DNA of 21,278 bases from a virus: positions 1 to 21,278 of IMG/VR virus record IMGVR_UViG_3300043468_000200. One strand, given 5' to 3'. Each line of letters starts with the position of its first letter. Positions within the stretch are counted from its first letter, which is position 1. The notes beneath the pieces are model-generated. The model was not told the DNA's origin and searched no databases. It saw nothing but the letters and a program-made list of their open reading frames with translations. Positions 3,272 through 19,313 of this stretch are shown here, one piece after another. The position numbers were made by a program, and so were the translations under genes.

Positions 3272-3492
3272 TGTCGGAGGCGGTCGTACTGATCGCCTGC
3301 GTGTTGGGTTTGGCGATTGGCACATATTTCGTGGCGAAAAGCCCGGACTTCTGGTTCGGGCTGATCACGCATGTGGCTAAGGAAATGATGCCAATCATCG
3401 CCAAAAGAATGCCTCCGGATCAGGAGGCGGCTTGGCGTGACTGCGTAAAGCGCAACGGCAAGTGGAACCATCGTAAGAATCGGTGTGAATGA
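3271..3492 (+). CDS. Small membrane protein of the lysis block
   Basis: This 73-residue protein has an N-terminal membrane segment (about 4-22, AVVLIACVLGLAIGTYFVA). An amphipathic stretch (about 26-47) and a basic tail with two cysteines (MPPDQEAAWRDCVKRNGKWNHRKNRC) follow. It starts on the stop of the holin gene and ends on the start of the next gene, so translation is tightly coupled. Its place after the holin and its one-membrane-segment topology are compatible with an inner-membrane spanin or an antiholin, but the soluble part lacks the long coiled coil of a usual i-spanin. The function is unassigned. Confidence 0.7.
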   Translation: MSEAVVLIACVLGLAIGTYFVAKSPDFWFGLITHVAKEMMPIIAKRMPPDQEAAWRDCVKRNGKWNHRKNRCE

Positions 3493-3689
3493 TGGCTATG
3501 TCTCGCGGAAATATGGGCAAGCAGATTGCCCGCCCCGGCAAGGTGAAGAAGGTGATGCACGAATTCAAGGTCGGCAGCCTCAAGTCTAGCTCGGGCCAGC
3601 GCGTGACAAATCCGAAGCAGGCGGTTGCTATCGCCTTGTCAGAGGCTCGGCGTGTGCGCCGTCCTCGGCGTCCCAAGAGGATGAAATGA
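3489..3689 (+). CDS. DUF6496-like small basic protein
   Basis: This 66-residue protein carries KVMHEFKVGSLKSSSGQRV, TNPKQAVAIALSEARR and a C-terminal run of Arg/Pro/Lys. This matches my memory of the DUF6496 pattern (MHEFK-x-G-x-L-x-S-x-x-G-x-x-V-x-x-x-x-Q-A-I-A-I-A-L-S-E-A). The family is found in phages and some bacteria and has no assigned function. Its basic character suggests nucleic-acid contact. The start is ambiguous: ATG codons at 3489, 3492 and 3498 are all in frame. The first overlaps the upstream TGA and fits the local coupling pattern. It overlaps the next gene by 4 bases (ATGA). Confidence 0.78.
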   Translation: MMAMSRGNMGKQIARPGKVKKVMHEFKVGSLKSSSGQRVTNPKQAVAIALSEARRVRRPRRPKRMK

Positions 3690-6002: not shown

Positions 6003-6089
6003 GATAGCGGGGAACGTGAGCATTTGGGCAGGCGGCTCCTGTAATCGGCGGTATGCCTCTTGGAGCGGGGCTCACACTTAGGATCAAAG
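6003..6089 (+). other. Short interval without a firm gene
   Basis: This 87-base gap is the longest between confident genes. One frame offers a GTG-started 21-codon peptide ending at 6081. Another reads naturally from about 6023 onward (AFGQAAPVIGGMPLGAGLTL) and runs on into the first part of the adaptor gene, but it follows a stop codon. A TAGGAT at about 6079-6084 may be the ribosome binding site for the adaptor. I see no terminator hairpin. Confidence 0.4.
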
Positions 6090-6791
6090 ATGACAACAAG
6101 CGGAACGACAACTTGGAACCCCGACATCGGGGAATTGGTCGAGGAAGCCTACGAGAGGGCTGGCCTTGAACTGCGTTCTGGCTATGACCTGAAGACTGCT
6201 CGGCGCAGCATGAACTTCCTCCTAGCGGAGTGGGCCAACAAGGGCCTTAACCTCTGGACTGTTCGTTCCGGCACCATTACTCTTGTGGCCGGTCAGAAGA
6301 CCTACACGTCTGCCGACGGGCTCCCGGCTGACGCGATTGACTACATTGAGCATGTGTGCCGGACGAGCAGCGCCGGAATCAACACCGACATTTCCCTGAA
6401 CAGGATCTCGGTGTCCACATACGCAAACATCCCGACCAAGGACCAGACTGGGCGTCCCTACCAGATCTATGTAAACAGGGCGACAAACTCGCCACAGATT
6501 ACGCTCTGGCCGGTTCCGGACTCTAGCACCGTTTACACGCTCGCGTACTGGTATCTGAAGCGTATGGACGACGCGACGAACCCCGTAAGCCAGACGATTG
6601 AGATCCCATTCCGGTTCTACAATGCCCTCGTTGCCGGGCTGGCATATCACATTGCCTTGAAAAAGCCGGAAGCCGCCGATAGGGTTTCCATGCTGAAGGA
6701 TCTCTACGACGAGGCGTTCCAGCTTGCCGCCGACGAGGACCGGGATCGCTCCAGCGACAGGTTCATCCCGTTTGTTGGATATGATTTCTGA
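6090..6791 (+). CDS. Head-to-tail connector adaptor, P22 gp4-like
   Basis: This 233-residue protein starts MTTSGTTTWNPDIGELVEEAYERAG, then ELRSGYDLKTARRSMNFLL and AEWANKGLNLWTV. This helical N-terminus is the pattern of P22 gp4-like packaged-DNA stabilisation/adaptor proteins in environmental podoviruses. A beta section (GTITLVAGQKTYTSADGLP and later SPQITLWPVPDSSTVYTLAYWYLKRM) and a C-terminal helix pair (FYNALVAGLAYHIALKKPEAA) follow, as expected for a ring-forming adaptor. It should bind the portal after genome packaging and give the docking surface for the tail. The ATG at 6090 is preferred over one at 6060 because of the TAGGA upstream and the fit to the family N-terminus. It overlaps the next gene by 1 base. 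Confidence 0.85.
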   Translation: MTTSGTTTWNPDIGELVEEAYERAGLELRSGYDLKTARRSMNFLLAEWANKGLNLWTVRSGTITLVAGQKTYTSADGLPADAIDYIEHVCRTSSAGINTDISLNRISVSTYANIPTKDQTGRPYQIYVNRATNSPQITLWPVPDSSTVYTLAYWYLKRMDDATNPVSQTIEIPFRFYNALVAGLAYHIALKKPEAADRVSMLKDLYDEAFQLAADEDRDRSSDRFIPFVGYDF

Positions 6792-7357
6792 TGTCGTTCT
6801 ATGCCTACATCCACTGTAAACCCGACGGAACGCCTTTCTATGTTGGCAAGGGCGACGAAACGCGGGTGTCGTTCAAGAAGCGTTACCACAACCGCCATCA
6901 CATGAACATCCTGAACAAGTACGGCGAGGACAAGATCCTCGTGGGAAAGATGGAGTGTTCGACGGAGGATATCGCCTTCGACCTTGAGCGGGGCCTGATA
7001 AAAAGGCTTCGTAAAATGGGCGTTGGCATTGTAAACTTAACTGAGGGAGGCGACGGCACCAAGGGTGCAGTTCGGTCCCCCGAAGCCCGGGCAAGGATGG
7101 CCGCTGCCAAAATTGGCAATCAGTGGAATGTTGGCCGGAAATATTCACTTGCGACCAAGATCAAGAAATCTAGGTCGCTTGGAGGGTCTGCTGTCGAGTG
7201 CGAAAAGGACGGAATTGTCCTGCGTTTCCCGACGATCTCTGAAGCTTGCAAGTCCCTTGGTCTCGACCTACCAAATGTCGTTAACCACATGAACAGGAAG
7301 GTCAGGCGCAGATCTCGCGGCATAAAGGGCTGGCAGATACGGAGGGTTTCTGAATGA
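6791..7357 (+). CDS. GIY-YIG homing endonuclease with NUMOD-type DNA-binding tail
   Basis: This is a 188-residue free-standing nuclease. The N-terminal GIY-YIG domain has Y4-A-Y-I-H and F16-Y-V-G-K-G for the GIY and YIG strands, R25, the catalytic-type E67 in a DLERGLIKRL helix, and N82-L-T-E-G-G-D-G. Residues 96-110 (SPEARARMAAAKIGN) match the NUMOD3 minor-groove-binding motif. Residues 137-186 (GIVLRFPTISEACKSLGLDL through GIKGWQIRR) look like a NUMOD1/IENR1 helix-turn-helix module. This is the architecture of phage homing endonucleases that cut alleles lacking them. It starts on the stop of the adaptor gene and ends in an ATGA overlap with the next gene, so it is inserted without breaking the operon. 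Confidence 0.9.
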   Translation: MSFYAYIHCKPDGTPFYVGKGDETRVSFKKRYHNRHHMNILNKYGEDKILVGKMECSTEDIAFDLERGLIKRLRKMGVGIVNLTEGGDGTKGAVRSPEARARMAAAKIGNQWNVGRKYSLATKIKKSRSLGGSAVECEKDGIVLRFPTISEACKSLGLDLPNVVNHMNRKVRRRSRGIKGWQIRRVSE

Positions 7358-7710
7358 GCGTTCCGTATGCCAAAGGAAAACTTGCATTCGGTTTTTGTGA
7401 TACATGCAACCAGAGGTATGACCTCCACGAGCTAAAGCCTCAAGTCGTCGCCGGTCGCGTCACAAACATCAAGAACTGCCCCTATTGCCTCGACAAGGAT
7501 CAGCCTCAATATTTCGTCGGGCGTGTGCCGATCAACGATCCGCAAGCCCTCTACAATCCCCGGCCTGACACTGCACAGGTTGTCAGCCGCGAACTCTGGG
7601 GCTGGAACCCCGTAGGAAACCCCGCTGTTTACGGAACCGGACAGGTTGGCGTGATCGGCATTTATCTCAACGGGGTGCCGAGCCCCATCACTTACTCTGG
7701 AGAACTATAA
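7354..7710 (+). CDS. Zinc-ribbon-like protein next to the connector genes
   Basis: This 118-residue protein has two CxxC pairs (C15/C18 and C42/C45) separated by 23 residues, the spacing of a small zinc ribbon. RYDLHELK and the strand VVAGRVTNIKN lie between them. The rest is a Pro/Gly/Trp-rich extension (SRELWGWNPVGNPAVYGTG) ending GIYLNGVPSPITYSGEL, with no helix predicted by eye. It is coupled on both sides (ATGA and TAATG). I recall similar proteins near head-tail genes of environmental phages, without assigned function. A structural zinc site in a minor virion or assembly protein is the best guess. Confidence 0.65.
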   Translation: MSVPYAKGKLAFGFCDTCNQRYDLHELKPQVVAGRVTNIKNCPYCLDKDQPQYFVGRVPINDPQALYNPRPDTAQVVSRELWGWNPVGNPAVYGTGQVGVIGIYLNGVPSPITYSGEL

Positions 7711-8357
7711 TGAAGAAGATGAAGCATGGCGGCAAGGCCCGTAAGTCTCACAAGCGTATGCAGGACGGCGGAATTACCAGCTACGGTAGCGCGTCAAATC
7801 TGAAGCCGGGTATGCAGGCTCTTGCCTCAAGCGATGCCTATATGCGCAGGCCGGGGCGTGGCAATGAGGGAATGTATCGTCCAATTGGTCGCTCGGGCCG
7901 TGGCGGTTCGTTCTCCGACATTCAGGGCATCATCGGTGGGGCTATGGGCCTCCCTATCCGTGGTGGCGGAATGACATCTGATATTGGTTCCGTCCCCATG
8001 GGTCGTGGTGGTGCCATGGCATCCATGGAAGCTCAGCCAGTGCGTCTCCCGGGTCGTGGTGGCGCAATGCCATCCGCTATCTCTCGGGGCATTGCTTCCG
8101 GCGCTCAGCCGATGGGCCGTGGTGGTTCTATTGGTGGTGCCACAGGCTATCAGGCTGGCGGCGGAATGACATCCGATGCCGACTCAGTTCCGATGGGTCG
8201 CGGTTTCCGCAAGGGCGGTGCTGTGAAGGCCAAGAAGAATATGCGTGGTGGCGGTCTCGCCCGTAAGGGTGTCGGCATGGCCCTCGCCAAGGGTGGACTT
8301 GCGAAGCGTGCCGGTGGTTGCGCGAAGCGCGGCGTTGGTCGCGGAAAGATGGTATAA
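7710..8357 (+). CDS. Gly/Arg/Met-rich repeat protein with Arg-Gly tail
   Basis: This 215-residue protein is nearly pure low complexity. It begins MKKMKHGGKARKSHKRMQDG, then carries repeated units of the form PxGRGG-(A/S)-M (for example VPMGRGGAMAS, RLPGRGGAMPS, QPMGRGGSIGG) and two near-identical copies of GGGMTSD-(I/A)-(G/D)-SVPMGRG near residues 85-98 and 151-164. The C-terminal third is Lys/Gly-rich (FRKGGAV, MRGGGLARKGVGMALAKGGL, KRAGGCAKRGVGRGKMV). It resembles RGG-box proteins but lacks any folded domain. The next genes carry the same type of C-terminal tail. Its start overlaps the upstream TAA. Nucleic-acid binding or packaging into the virion is inferred. Confidence 0.65.
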   Translation: MKKMKHGGKARKSHKRMQDGGITSYGSASNLKPGMQALASSDAYMRRPGRGNEGMYRPIGRSGRGGSFSDIQGIIGGAMGLPIRGGGMTSDIGSVPMGRGGAMASMEAQPVRLPGRGGAMPSAISRGIASGAQPMGRGGSIGGATGYQAGGGMTSDADSVPMGRGFRKGGAVKAKKNMRGGGLARKGVGMALAKGGLAKRAGGCAKRGVGRGKMV

Positions 8358-8358
8358 C

Positions 8359-8760
8359 ATGGCAAAAGACAAGCCCACAAAAGAAGAGGCGGCGACAGGC
8401 GCAGCAGACATGATCTATGCGCTTAGTCAGGGCTTGGGCATGGGCACCCGTAGCCCCGGAAGGTTTGTTGATCTTCTCGGCGGCACGGGTCTTGCTGTTG
8501 CCGGTACAAATAGGGAGGGCCAGACAGGTGTCCTGATTGGCAACAAGTTTGTGCCGACAAGCCAGAATTACTACGAATCCCCGTACTCCCCCGGGGATTC
8601 ATCGGATGATGAGGAAAAGCCTTCAGGCAAGCCGATCAAGGATATTGACCTTCCGATAAAGGTTGGCAGCAGATTGAAAGCTTCTGGAATGAAGGCTGGT
8701 GGCCTTGTCCGTGGTGCCGGTAAGGCTGAGCGCGGGCGCGGGCGCGGAAGGATGGTCTGA
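8359..8760 (+). CDS. Small protein with Gly-Gly/Arg-Gly tail, paralogue A
   Basis: From the ATG at 8359 (1 base after the previous stop; an earlier in-frame ATG at 8245 is inside the upstream gene) this is 133 residues. A helical N-terminus is followed by GTGLAVAGTNREGQTGVLIG, an acidic section (DSSDDEEKPSGKPIKDIDLP), KVGSRLK, and a C-terminal tail MKAGGLVRGAGKAERGRGRG. The G-x-LA-x-G-x-(N/H)-R-(E/D)-G strand, the KPIKDI-(D/N)-LP linker, KVGSRL and the tail all recur in the next gene. The pair therefore looks like a tandem duplication with diverged ends. No known family is recognised. Confidence 0.65.
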   Translation: MAKDKPTKEEAATGAADMIYALSQGLGMGTRSPGRFVDLLGGTGLAVAGTNREGQTGVLIGNKFVPTSQNYYESPYSPGDSSDDEEKPSGKPIKDIDLPIKVGSRLKASGMKAGGLVRGAGKAERGRGRGRMV

Positions 8761-8761
8761 T

Positions 8762-9106
8762 ATGTCAAAGCCGATCAAGGCCCCAACAGAGCCGGGTAAG
8801 TTTGTCGGCCTTGGTCCGCTGGCCTTTGGTGTTCACAGAGATGGGACACCCGGAGTCATGTTTCATGGTCACTTTTTTGCGTGGCCGGACAGCATGTCCT
8901 CCGGAGACAAGGAAGACAAGCCGACAGCGAAGCCGATCAAGGACATCAACCTCCCTTTGAGCGACAAGGGGCCCGAAAAGCGCTCTGATTCGGAAGCCTA
9001 CAAGCCGAAGGTTGGCAGCAGGTTGTCAAAGGACATGCGTTCCGGCGGAATGGTTCGTGGTTGTGGTTCCGCTCAGCGTGGGCTCACTCGCGGAAAAATC
9101 AAGTAA
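8762..9106 (+). CDS. Small protein with Gly-Gly/Arg-Gly tail, paralogue B
   Basis: This 114-residue protein starts 1 base after the upstream TGA. It has LGPLAFGVHRDGTPGVMFHG, an acidic linker, KPIKDINLPLS, KPKVGSRLSKDM and the tail MRSGGMVRGCGSAQRGLTRG. Each segment has a counterpart in the same order in the preceding protein, but the N-terminal helix is missing and the linker is longer. This is the shorter member of a duplicated pair. It ends 9 bases before the next gene, whose ribosome binding site (AAGAGGAAG) overlaps its stop region. Function unknown. Confidence 0.65.
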   Translation: MSKPIKAPTEPGKFVGLGPLAFGVHRDGTPGVMFHGHFFAWPDSMSSGDKEDKPTAKPIKDINLPLSDKGPEKRSDSEAYKPKVGSRLSKDMRSGGMVRGCGSAQRGLTRGKIK

Positions 9107-9115
9107 GAGGAAGAA

Positions 9116-9394
9116 ATGAAGTACACGTACAGGAAGAAGATGGCGGAAGGCGGCAAGGTCGGCTACACCGCCAAGGAGCGCAAAAGTCTCCGTCGCCTTA
9201 TCGAGGAGATGGCCGATCCTTATGCCGGTGACGTAACGGGCGGTAGCTCTGTCACCATCATCAAGAAGAGCAAAAAGAAGATGGCTGCTGGCGGCATTGT
9301 GAATGCTCCCGCTCGCTCTCATCGTGACATGCGGGCTGGTGCCGGTAGCGGTGTCGGTCGGCTTCAGAAGACCAAAATCCAGCGGGGTCGCTAA
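9116..9394 (+). CDS. Small basic Gly-Gly-motif protein
   Basis: This 92-residue protein has a first motif KKMAEGGKVGYTAKERKSLR, a helix RRLIEEMADPYAG, a short strand SSVTIIKKSKKK and a second motif KMAAGGIVNAPARSHRDMRA. It ends in GAGSGVGRLQKTKIQRGR. The RAGAGSG-x-GRLQK ending looks like one I associate with small proteins of environmental phages. The two K-M-A-(E/A)-GG copies match the motif in the neighbouring proteins. A GAGGAAG ribosome binding site precedes the ATG at 9116. No enzyme motif is visible. Confidence 0.65.
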   Translation: MKYTYRKKMAEGGKVGYTAKERKSLRRLIEEMADPYAGDVTGGSSVTIIKKSKKKMAAGGIVNAPARSHRDMRAGAGSGVGRLQKTKIQRGR

Positions 9395-9395
9395 A

Positions 9396-9563
9396 ATGCA
9401 GAAGCAGAACGCACGGCTCAAGGACCCGTCGGATGCCACCGTTGAAGGCGGCATGCGGCGCGGTGTAAACGTCGGGAACATGAAGATCCTGAAGAAGCCC
9501 ATGAAGATGCGCGGCGGTGGTGCCGCGACGAAGGGTCTGAGGATCTCGGAGAAGCAGGGCTGA
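9396..9563 (+). CDS. Small basic protein with Gly-Gly and Arg-Gly motifs
   Basis: From the ATG at 9396 (1 base after the upstream TAA) this is 55 residues: MQKQNARLKDPSDATVEGGM, RRGVNVGNMKILKKPMKMRG and GGAATKGLRISEKQG. The earlier in-frame ATG at 9303 lies inside the previous gene. The RGGGAATKG end resembles the RGxGxAxRG tails of the preceding proteins. It is the last member of the small-protein block and is followed after 1 base by the second adaptor-like gene. Confidence 0.6.
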   Translation: MQKQNARLKDPSDATVEGGMRRGVNVGNMKILKKPMKMRGGGAATKGLRISEKQG

Positions 9564-9564
9564 T

Positions 9565-10209
9565 ATGGCCTTCACGTATGCACAGCTTGTAGATGCGATC
9601 CACGGCTACCTTCAGGTAGACTCGAATGGTATCTCGACTACCGATATGGACACGATCATTCGGCAGGCCGAGCAGCGCATCTACTATGACGTGCAGATCC
9701 CGGTCCTCAAGAAGAACGTGACGGGCAACCTGACGGCGAACAATCGCTATCTCACGACCCCGACGGACTATCTGGCGACATACTCCATTGCCGTGAACAA
9801 CAACGGCACATACGAGTATTTGCTCCCGAAGGAGGTTGCGTTTCTCCGTGAGGCGTATCCCTCTACATCGACGACCGGGGTTCCCCGCTACTACGCGATC
9901 TTCGACAACGACACCTTCCTGATCGGTCCTCCACCGGATTCATCTTACGAAGTCGAGCTTCACTACTTCTACGAACCGGCGTCCATCGTTGATCAGCCAG
10001 CAGGCACTTGGATCAGCGAAAACGCCGAAAATGCTCTACTGTACGGCTGCCTATTTGAGGCGTACACGTACCTCAAGGGCGAGCAGGATCTCATTGGCCT
10101 TTACGCCGGGAAGTACAAGGAGTCGCTACAGGCGCTCAAGGTCATTGGCGAAGGCCGTAACCGTTCCGACACGTACAGAAATTCTGAACCCCGCATCACG
10201 CCGAACTGA
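9565..10209 (+). CDS. Head-tail adaptor or tail-tube-like connector protein
   Basis: This 214-residue protein begins MAFTYAQLVDAIHGYLQ, with an N-terminal helix bundle (TTDMDTIIRQAEQRIYYDVQIPVL). A strand-rich core (NRYLTTPTDYLATYSIAV, YEYLLPKEVAFLREAYP, GVPRYYAIFDNDTFLIGPPP, YEVELHYFYEP) follows, then a C-terminal helix (ENALLYGCLFEAYTYLK). The PTDYL, (P/V)-x-x-YYAI and IGP-x-P patterns are those of phage adaptor proteins related to T7 gp11-like or SU10-type connectors. It probably forms a ring between portal and nozzle. Together with the gp4-like adaptor it brackets the small Gly-Gly protein block. Its TGA overlaps the next ATG. Confidence 0.78.
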   Translation: MAFTYAQLVDAIHGYLQVDSNGISTTDMDTIIRQAEQRIYYDVQIPVLKKNVTGNLTANNRYLTTPTDYLATYSIAVNNNGTYEYLLPKEVAFLREAYPSTSTTGVPRYYAIFDNDTFLIGPPPDSSYEVELHYFYEPASIVDQPAGTWISENAENALLYGCLFEAYTYLKGEQDLIGLYAGKYKESLQALKVIGEGRNRSDTYRNSEPRITPN

Positions 10210-17381: not shown

Positions 17382-18077
17382 ATGTATTTCAACGGAATTC
17401 CACCAGCGTTTGGGCAGGCCCAATACAACAATCCGCAGGACCTTATGAATAAGCCCGTTTTCGGTTATAATCAGGGTATTAGCGGCATTCAGTCAAACCA
17501 GCAATCACAGTGGTCGCCACCGCCGCAGCTTGGAAACATTGGCGGCTCTGGTCAGCCTCCGCAGCAGCAAAGCTCAAGCGTAAATTCCACCACAGGGGGT
17601 GCCGGTAGGCAAATTATGCCGCTCCAGTCCTACAGCAAGCCAATGGCCGGTCAGGCGATGGCGCGTGGAGGGGTTGTTAACCAGACCCTCGAAAAGGGTG
17701 GCGTAGTTGCTGGCGGCATTTCGGCCCTTCGTGGGCAGCACCCTAATCCGCGTCAGGCACTTGATCGCTATGATCGCATGTTCGGCAGGGATGCCACAGC
17801 AGAGCTTATCCGCGCCTACGCAGATGGAGGCGTTGTGTCCGGCCCCGGAAGCGGGGTCGCAGATTTGGTCCCCGGTTCAATTGATGGCCGAGAGGATGTC
17901 CGGATTGCGAGCGGCGAGTATGTTATTCCGGCGTGGGCTGTTGCCACACTTGGCGATGGTTCGACAGAGGCCGGTGCAAAAGTCCTAGACGCCATGGTCG
18001 CGCGTCTGAGAGAAGAAGGATCCGAGCTTATCAAGGGATCTGAACCCATCAACCCCAGCGAATTTCTTCCGGCGTAA
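17382..18077 (+). CDS. Gly-Gly-motif protein, probable virion component
   Basis: This 231-residue protein has a disordered Gln/Pro/Ser/Gly-rich first third (about 30-75). Two motifs then lie at 94-99 (ARGGVV) and 104-109 (EKGGVV), and a third at 147-152 (ADGGVV). Between them a helix (NPRQALDRYDRMFGRDATAE) is visible. Residues 153-215 carry SGPGSGVADLVPGSIDGRED, RIASGEYVIPAWAVATLGDG and STEAGAKVLDAMVARLREEG. This G-P-G-(S/T)-G-x-x-D-x-(V/I)-P then S-x-GE-(Y/F)-V-(I/V)-P/N-A pattern is widespread in phage tail and internal virion proteins. It may be a scaffold or ejection component. It is separated from its neighbours by 1 and 3 bases. Confidence 0.68.
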   Translation: MYFNGIPPAFGQAQYNNPQDLMNKPVFGYNQGISGIQSNQQSQWSPPPQLGNIGGSGQPPQQQSSSVNSTTGGAGRQIMPLQSYSKPMAGQAMARGGVVNQTLEKGGVVAGGISALRGQHPNPRQALDRYDRMFGRDATAELIRAYADGGVVSGPGSGVADLVPGSIDGREDVRIASGEYVIPAWAVATLGDGSTEAGAKVLDAMVARLREEGSELIKGSEPINPSEFLPA

Positions 18078-18080
18078 AAA

Positions 18081-19313
18081 ATGGCAAAGACAGAAACAGG
18101 TAAATCGGTAGCCAACTACGTACAAGACGTACTAGATCAGGCTCAAAGTGGCGGAAGCGCGGCCATTGAGGCTGGCTATCCGGGCTTGTCTAAATACACG
18201 ATGGCGTACTTGCGTGGCCTCCCGGGGCTAGGCCAGTATGGCGATGCCGAGCAGCGCGAAGCACTTCGTCGCATGGGCGATATGTATCGCCAGTATGGTC
18301 AGGCTGGCCAGTACGACATGACGAATTTTTCCGACATCGGCAGAAAGTACGAGCGGGCCGGTGAGTATGATCCGACCAGCTACGCCAACCTACAGGATGC
18401 GTATCGCAGGCAGGGCAGATACGGCCCTACGGATTTCGCAGAAGCCGACTACACCACCAAAAACATCAAGCAGCGCATGTCTCCCTATGAGGAGCTTGTC
18501 GCAAAGCGGGCAACAGACCGCCTTCAGAAGCAGTACGATGAGGCGGCATCAAGCCGCGCCCTTGAAGCTGCTCGTGCGGGTTCCTTTGGTGGATCTGGTG
18601 CGGCAGTTGCCCAAGAGGTAGCCCGCCGCAATATGCAGGAGCAGATGGCGGATGTAAACGCTCAGAGCCTCCAGAACGCATACGAATCTGCCGTTGGTCT
18701 CTACGGCAAGGAGTTCGCCGACAACATGGCGGCACAGCAGGCCGAGGAACAGTCACGTCAGTTTGGTGCCAACCTTGGTCTTCAGGGGCTTCAGGGCGCT
18801 ATGGCTGCCCGTCAGGCTGGCGAAGCCTCAAGGCAGTTTGCATCTCAGGCTCAGTTTCAAGGGCTTCAGGGCCTTATGGGCGCACGTCAAGCCGAGGCTG
18901 GTCAGATTGCCGCCGCAAAGGAAGCGGAGCTTGCCGCCCTTCAGGGTCGCGCATCTTCTGCCCGTGAGCAGGCGCTCCTTGCGGAGCAGAAGAAGAACAT
19001 GCAGCTTGCGAACCTCGCGGCCCTTCAGGCTGGAGGAAATTTACAAGAGCAGTACAACTTGGCGCAGCGGTATTATCCGCTTCAGGTTTCGCAGATGCAG
19101 GCTGGCGTCTTGGGCGGCATGTCAGGCGGCTATCAGCCCGTGAAATCAATGGGCAATGATAAGCCATCTTGGCTCCAAAATGCCATCGGCCTCGGATCCG
19201 CCGTTGGTGGAATTCTTCAGGGCTTTGGTGGCTTCCGCAAGGGTGGCGTCGTATATCGCGGTGGTGGCCTCGCCGATCTTGAACCCGAATACTACGATCA
19301 GTACGAGCGCTAA
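18081..19313 (+). CDS. Probable internal virion (ejection) protein, helical, Gln/Ala-rich
   Basis: This 410-residue protein is rich in Ala, Gln, Glu and Arg and mostly helical. Residues 38-125 have short Tyr/Gly turns (YRQYGQAGQYDM, YERAGEYDPTSY, YRRQGRYGPTDF). Residues 134-225 form long helices. Residues 225-249 and 250-273 are two related units (SRQF-x8-GLQG-x-M-x-ARQAGEA and similar), followed by a coiled-coil-like section to about 310. A Gly-rich hydrophobic patch (AIGLGSAVGGILQGFGGF) leads into RKGGVVYRGGGLADL near the C-terminus. Size, helicity and position match gp14-like internal proteins of T7-type phages, ejected with DNA (inference). It starts 3 bases after the previous stop. Confidence 0.68.
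   Translation: MAKTETGKSVANYVQDVLDQAQSGGSAAIEAGYPGLSKYTMAYLRGLPGLGQYGDAEQREALRRMGDMYRQYGQAGQYDMTNFSDIGRKYERAGEYDPTSYANLQDAYRRQGRYGPTDFAEADYTTKNIKQRMSPYEELVAKRATDRLQKQYDEAASSRALEAARAGSFGGSGAAVAQEVARRNMQEQMADVNAQSLQNAYESAVGLYGKEFADNMAAQQAEEQSRQFGANLGLQGLQGAMAARQAGEASRQFASQAQFQGLQGLMGARQAEAGQIAAAKEAELAALQGRASSAREQALLAEQKKNMQLANLAALQAGGNLQEQYNLAQRYYPLQVSQMQAGVLGGMSGGYQPVKSMGNDKPSWLQNAIGLGSAVGGILQGFGGFRKGGVVYRGGGLADLEPEYYDQYER

Follow-up and report, generated by a model that had tools for sequence, protein, structure and literature searches.

A C-terminal Arg-Gly tag on different small proteins encoded among the head and neck genes of environmental phages

Phage capsids and encapsulin shells have the HK97 fold in common, and in encapsulins short C-terminal tails on different cargo proteins serve for their loading. 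In phage T4, the capsid targeting sequence is N-terminal and is removed by the prohead protease. Repeated Arg-Gly (RG) is the conserved element of RGG/RG-rich nucleic-acid-binding tails. We here compare with these systems a short C-terminal tail, referred to as the tag, that is encoded in IMG/VR virus record IMGVR_UViG_3300043468_000200. The whole stretch of 21,278 bases, which carries phage genes for head, neck and tail, is called the window. The tag is 22 residues long, with a consensus of approximately [K/A]-K-G-G-x-[V/M]-[R/K]-G-x-G-x-A-x-[R/K]-G, after which seven more residues lead to the free C-terminus. It is anchored to the C-terminus at a fixed spacing and occurs on 22 families of protein bodies in the sample examined. 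Tagged proteins are encoded among head and neck genes.

Our preferred explanation, to which we give a probability of about one half, is that the tag serves for docking or packaging and brings changeable accessory proteins to a partner in the head or neck. The last 22 residues would constitute a disordered, basic short linear motif that binds a constant partner (portal, capsid lining or adaptor), and this binding would carry a varied, rapidly changing set of accessory proteins onto the virion or into it. The exact C-terminal spacing, the conserved uncharged positions, the swapped bodies and the unchanging gene region suggest that a partner recognizes the C-terminus. The presence of tagged proteins in the virion, the binding of the tag to a protein and the identity of that protein are points that we infer.

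With the second of two head-tail adaptor genes in the window (adaptor 2) as query, 79 IMG/VR loci were retrieved, many of which are close relatives, so that locus counts are not independent. A first regular-expression scan of these loci yielded 84 tail matches, all of them on the coding strand of the adaptor. A tail profile was prepared from 27 tails, none identical to those of the window and with close ones kept in. At 12 bits or more, the profile matched 110 of 5957 distinct open reading frames (ORFs) of the related loci, including the proteins that had supplied the 27 training tails, versus none of 5957 decoys in which the body and the last 40 residues had been shuffled separately. The corresponding numbers were 110 ORFs versus 1 decoy at 10 bits and 114 versus 4 at 8 bits. 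All 110 matches end within 14 residues of the C-terminus.

Bodies of at least 20 residues were present in 108 of these 110 proteins and fell into 22 families by single linkage, the largest of which has 52 members and may be chained. Among 74 distinct proteins with the strict tag, tag identity was 70% or more in 442 pairs, 159 of which showed no body similarity at an E-value (E) of 0.1. For the clearest body-swapped pairs, the tag DNA was 88% identical and the 150 nt upstream were at the shuffled level. In 23 loci (the window and 22 others, with adaptors 92 to 100% identical), 19 distinct strict-tag proteins of four body families precede adaptor 2. Sixteen of the 19, with starts picked by rule, belong to one family and mostly have a common N-terminal core and a differing linker. 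Bodies before adaptor 2 thus change fast, with traces of kinship remaining. One locus (L002) has a block identical to that of the window.

The position of the tag relative to the stop codon was examined with a DNA pattern back-translated from K-GG-x-[V/M/I]-[R/S]-G-T-G-A-A, in which the protein end was left unspecified. This pattern matched 46 viral stretches, all 46 in frame and starting exactly 21 residues before the stop; the 46 carry 10 different sequences of the last seven residues. Bacterial and archaeal genomes, 257 Gb in total, gave two matches to the same pattern, with about one expected by chance (our own arithmetic, assuming equal base use). Neither was at a protein end: in one case 50 residues separate the match from the end of a mechanical ORF, and in the other the match is in no open frame. 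The fixed place of Gly-Gly, 20 residues before the end in strict-tag proteins, might also be that of a processing signal at which a protease cuts and releases the body. Residues after Gly-Gly are, however, conserved, and all 46 matches retained [R/K]-G downstream of the motif, where the pattern had left the residues free. No prohead protease gene was recognized by eye in the loci inspected, no search aimed at one having been made. Conservation would also be expected of a signal that acts before it is removed, as in T4; we regard processing as very improbable.

The genes of the window from the first adaptor to the second are as follows.

6072..6791, + strand: first adaptor-like gene (adaptor 1); phrog_12985 at E 3.5e-29 and phrog_10775 'tail protein' at E 1.9e-9
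6791-7357: homing-endonuclease-like gene; phrog_314 at E 3.2e-15, NUMOD matches below cut-off
7354..7710, + strand: small CxxC...CxxC protein, zinc-ribbon-like (label given by eye); only a weak PHROG match, E 0.039
7710..8357, + strand: ORF1, 215 residues, isoelectric point (pI) 11.7, Gly-rich; looser tag in the last 22 residues, 8289-8354 (GCAKRG and seven residues to the end)
8359..8760, + strand: ORF2, 133 residues; 22-residue tag KAGGLVRGAGKAERGRGRGRMV, 8692-8757
8762..9106, + strand: ORF3, 114 residues, paralogue of ORF2; 22-residue tag RSGGMVRGCGSAQRGLTRGKIK, 9038-9103
9116..9394, + strand: ORF4, 92 residues; different 34-residue tail (AGAGSGVGRLQKTKIQRGR end), 9290-9391
9396..9563, + strand: ORF5, 55 residues, highly conserved, immediately preceding adaptor 2; short tag form RGGGAATKGLRISEKQG
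9565..10209, + strand: adaptor 2, SU10 family; PF24175 SU10_adaptor at E 6.5e-26, also phrog_10775

The initial annotation had described five consecutive small proteins with one shared tail on mostly unrelated upstream parts, in a block between two head-tail adaptor genes. The five ORFs and the quoted peptides are located where it had placed them, and the flanking genes are indeed adaptor-like; adaptor 2 scores 92.4 bits versus the curated PF24175 cut-off of 27, which makes it a member of the SU10_adaptor family. The shared tail itself was partly confirmed, its limits having been placed wrongly. In pair tests of the last 40 residues with 1000 shuffles per pair, the similarity of the ORF2 and ORF3 tails was strong (z 11.8, no shuffle equally good). 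Given that their bodies are also related (z 10.3, 0 of 1000), these two ORFs are paralogues, and for them the claim of unrelated upstream parts does not hold. Support was moderate for ORF1 with ORF2 and with ORF3 (2 of 1000 shuffles each) and weak for ORF1 with ORF5 (18 of 1000); shuffling did not support the pairs ORF2-ORF5 (585 of 1000), ORF3-ORF5 (112 of 1000) or the four pairs with ORF4 (58 to 804 of 1000). When relatives were included, one tail profile gave 12 bits or more for each of the ORF1, ORF2, ORF3 and ORF5 families, a score reached by none of the 5957 decoys. ORF2 and ORF3 have Gly-Gly at position -20, the spacing of the viral pattern matches. ORF1 retains A-x-R-G and seven residues to the end; ORF5 has eight, one residue more after its last KG than the tag has elsewhere. 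ORF2 and ORF3 thus carry the 22-residue tag and ORF1 and ORF5 looser forms of it. The last 34 residues of ORF4, GGIVNAPARSHRDMRAGAGSGVGRLQKTKIQRGR, form a distinct tail, its end not being KMAAGGIVNAPARSHRDMR, and ORF4 belongs to another tail class.

Constraint on these sequences was assessed from the proportions of synonymous (pS) and nonsynonymous (pN) differences in sets each gathered with a motif in which some residues are fixed. Values of pS and pN were 0.467 and 0.063 for ORF5 (34 distinct DNA sequences), 0.572 and 0.115 for the ORF4 tail, and 0.610 and 0.192 for the tags of the window group, and these coding sequences are under constraint. For all tag pairs (pS 0.68, pN 0.40), synonymous sites were near saturation, and the narrower sets were used instead. 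The values for the window-group tags, together with the exact spacing and the absence of any decoy of the same composition at 12 bits, argue against the notion that the tails are a low-complexity, recombination-prone and functionless end spread by duplication and shuffling. Such an origin would be consistent with the ORF2 and ORF3 paralogues, the chimeric ORFs of relatives and the Gly- and Arg-rich composition; we nevertheless consider it very improbable.

The tag is predicted to be disordered. In a structure model of a protein with a LysM body and the tag, the predicted local distance difference test (pLDDT) score was about 80 for the LysM part and below 50 for the last 50 residues. The model for ORF2 was poor (mean pLDDT 56, predicted template modelling score 0.35), with a helix and strands in the first half and a disordered second half. 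The mean net charge of the tag was +5.4 (2 to 8, 61 distinct tags), and other very basic small proteins (DUF6321, DUF5872-like and DUF6496; pI 11.2 to 12.0) are encoded in the same region. Both observations would suit an RG-rich tail that binds nucleic acid, with small basic proteins neutralizing packaged DNA or acting on nucleic acid in the infected cell. Loose binding of this kind would not need the exact C-terminal spacing or a position restricted to V or M. In addition, the Arg of the second RG is replaced by Lys in 22 of 52 distinct tags (30 with R), compared with 7 K and 45 R at the first; these tags were collected by motif, so that fixed columns are conserved by construction. LysM bodies, moreover, suggest peptidoglycan rather than DNA. 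We consider nucleic-acid binding unlikely as the role of the tag.

With regard to docking, the gene position of the tag in relatives was determined in eleven mapped loci, whose genes were labelled from their similarity to annotated relatives. In three loci (L130, L136, L170), the tag genes follow adaptor 1 and precede the CxxC protein gene; in one that is interrupted by a contig end (L139), the tag gene is directly before the CxxC protein gene; and in three (L131, L144, L167), the tag genes are located between the CxxC protein gene and adaptor 2. They lie between terminase-like and portal-like genes in three others (L143, L160, L165) and after a capsid-like gene in one (L148). Twenty whole records, many chosen for the adaptor and each searched in its entirety, were also searched with a 20-row tag profile at E 0.05, and 12 records gave 20 matches. 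The initial annotation had asked whether profile matches cluster near adaptor genes, and they do: 12 lie between the adaptors and 6 within 2.6 kb upstream of adaptor 1. One of the remaining two is in the terminase-portal gap of a record without a detected adaptor. The other is at the end of HTVC023P gp32, which adjoins the 2.3-kb gp31 (annotated as hypothetical and taken for the portal). The product of the between-adaptor fractions, 7.3e-13, ignores relatedness and is not a probability. With the same profile, 15 other cultured phages (0.94 Mb) gave no match at E 1.

Tagged proteins might instead be nonstructural proteins whose genes are located in the head region by coincidence, the tag acting in the infected cell in degradation, localization or host interaction. 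Anchoring at the C-terminus is a typical property of signals whose free end is recognized, such as ssrA-type tags, and no proteomics data that place tagged proteins in virions were found. The location of 18 of the 20 matches among head and neck genes near adaptors, and of other tagged genes beside portal-like genes, makes such a role improbable.

Several observations weigh against docking or packaging at a head or neck partner. The charge of the tag is also compatible with nucleic-acid binding, and our search of literature and structures revealed no virion proteomics, partner or solved structure. Eight of the 20 records, including HTVC027P and Roseobacter phage CRP-901, gave no tag match at E 0.05; these have or are close to this adaptor type, which indicates that the module works without the tag. 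Tagged genes occur in the terminase-portal gap as well, with no single neighbour that explains them, and the positional evidence all comes from related phages. Given the tagged proteins in this gap or after the capsid gene, the adaptors need not be the partner.

The initial interpretation is, as a whole, partly supported. A conserved tail does occur on differing bodies encoded in the head region, and this claim is strengthened by the fixed distance to the stop codon and by the presence of the tag in other phage contigs, as the initial annotation had stated for similar tails. The test named as able to refute it, a rate of matches expected from composition, was run and yielded 110 real ORFs versus 0 decoys, and hence no refutation. 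Among the proposed roles, targeting or docking fits, whereas processing by a cut at Gly-Gly lacks support, with conserved residues following that site. The suggested link to virion assembly has gene position as its sole basis, and tagged proteins are also encoded between terminase-like and portal-like genes or after the capsid gene. If the tag does load proteins into virions, virion or injected proteins could be recognized by a sequence rule among the many small genes that lack annotation in uncultivated phages, and studies of how accessory proteins get to the particle would gain a short handle.

Searches of Pfam and PHROG at E 1 gave no match for any of the five window ORFs. Among tag proteins of relatives, three scanned proteins with LysM bodies match PF01476 (E 9.5e-14 to 3.5e-13), two others match DUF6496 (E 2.5e-9 and 1.2e-10), and seven further ones gave no Pfam match; two proteins that had been scanned with them on account of other tails are not counted here. 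Searches of annotated phages with tblastn gave no match for ORF3, a 23-residue tail, ORF4, a protein of L118 or the tail of a LysM protein, probably because low-complexity sequence was masked, and profile and pattern searches were therefore used. The tag profile gave no match in the PDB at E 10. A phrog_2423 domain in the relative L066 led to 48 phage records; the five proteins inspected were short and without the tag, and this lead was dropped.

Proteins similar to ORF1 (window 7710-8357; L006, L009, L017) have a Gly-rich repeated middle and range from approximately 130 to more than 500 residues as mechanical ORFs. The CxxC protein is kept next to the adaptors in relatives. The homing-endonuclease-like gene between adaptor 1 and the CxxC protein is present in L006 and L013 and missing in L005 and L014. 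The region also encodes, at 1096-1350, 1706-2077 and 3489-3689, three small proteins that are very basic: a DUF6321 (PF19846) protein, one with a DUF5872 match below cut-off and a DUF6496 (PF20106) protein. The DUF6321 protein matches eight PHROGs (99 to 928 positions), in seven of which the match extends to the last position, and DUF6321 thus forms the C-terminal part of PHROG families that differ greatly in length. One of the three DUF names was found in the literature, in one paper on an algal virus. The later window genes 17382-18077 and 18081-19313 contain KGGVV and GGVVSGPGSG motifs, whose relation to the tag was examined by motif count only: GG[LMIVK][VM] occurs 8 times in the 31 window proteins versus a shuffle mean of 2.2 and a largest shuffle of 8, a mildly raised count that was not used.

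Other C-terminal tails were also observed. The AGAGSGxGRLxK element of the ORF4 tail is present in at least 120 viral stretches. In 78 scanned loci it gave 97 matches, of which 48 were at 7 or 8 residues from the end and the others further in, partly in tandem. This class (window 9290-9391; L190-L267) is widespread; Pro- or GG-rich proteins carry the element close to the C-terminus, in some cases twice in tandem. Another ending, DYIKDL[LIMVF], which often follows GG and GKG, was first noted in genes beside the tag genes of the terminase-portal gap. It was likewise found in at least 120 viral stretches, with 82 distinct proteins of 18 body families among the matches listed; the search included the stop, so that the terminal position is by construction. 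Up to three such genes occur per contig (L307-L384, L143, L146), and HTVC023P gp53 (L081:7497-7862) ends in DYYKDIM, which resembles this end. Among more distant relatives, one phage has ARGSGAARPQKFRKNG at the end of a body of the MPLKRG...QKQAVAI type and another has VKRKFGGGNL (L066:6162-6461, L068:3789-4082); VKRKFGGGKL ends an unrelated protein there as well (L066:7517-7780).

The cultured phages with the tag are two, HTVC023P and Planktothrix phage Pag-Yong1. HTVC023P, whose host is HTCC1062, belongs to a pelagiphage group described as the most abundant known in the ocean (PMC12753301). The hypothetical proteins gp32 (QGZ17661.1) and gp51 (QGZ17680.1) of HTVC023P and UMO75986 (UMO75986.1) of Pag-Yong1 carry the tag or a close form at the end and are encoded in the head and neck region; the tag is what they have in common with the window proteins, to whose bodies theirs are unrelated. 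HTVC023P gp51, which is not among the 20 whole-record matches, scored 17.7 bits on the 27-tail profile and has a Pfam match below cut-off only. A literature search, with subscription literature largely outside its reach, revealed no paper on the tag and no virion proteomics of either phage.

With regard to the systems described at the outset, the tag resembles RGG/RG-rich tails in its Arg-Gly pairs, positive charge and predicted disorder; it differs in the fixed C-terminal spacing and in that the second RG is often KG, so that repeated RG is not a conserved element of it. With the T4 capsid targeting sequence it shares the arrangement of one short signal on several different proteins, which in T4 are bound for the head. 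The T4 signal is, however, located at the N-terminus and removed by the prohead protease, whereas all 110 profile matches and all 46 pattern matches place the tag at the C-terminal end, with no sign of cutting. Similar to encapsulin cargo-loading peptides, the tag is a short C-terminal tail on unrelated proteins; its sequence is different, and it is set among phage head and neck genes. Given that the T4 signal is N-terminal and that binding of the tag to a shell is putative, we count the tag as a member of neither system. It is possible, as a tentative extension, that a small set of C-terminal tags (RGxGxAxRG, AGAGSGxGRLxK and DYIKDL[LI]) serves environmental phages as a code that sorts changeable accessory proteins, including peptidoglycan-binding ones with LysM bodies, to fixed sites of virion assembly, a phage counterpart of encapsulin cargo loading.

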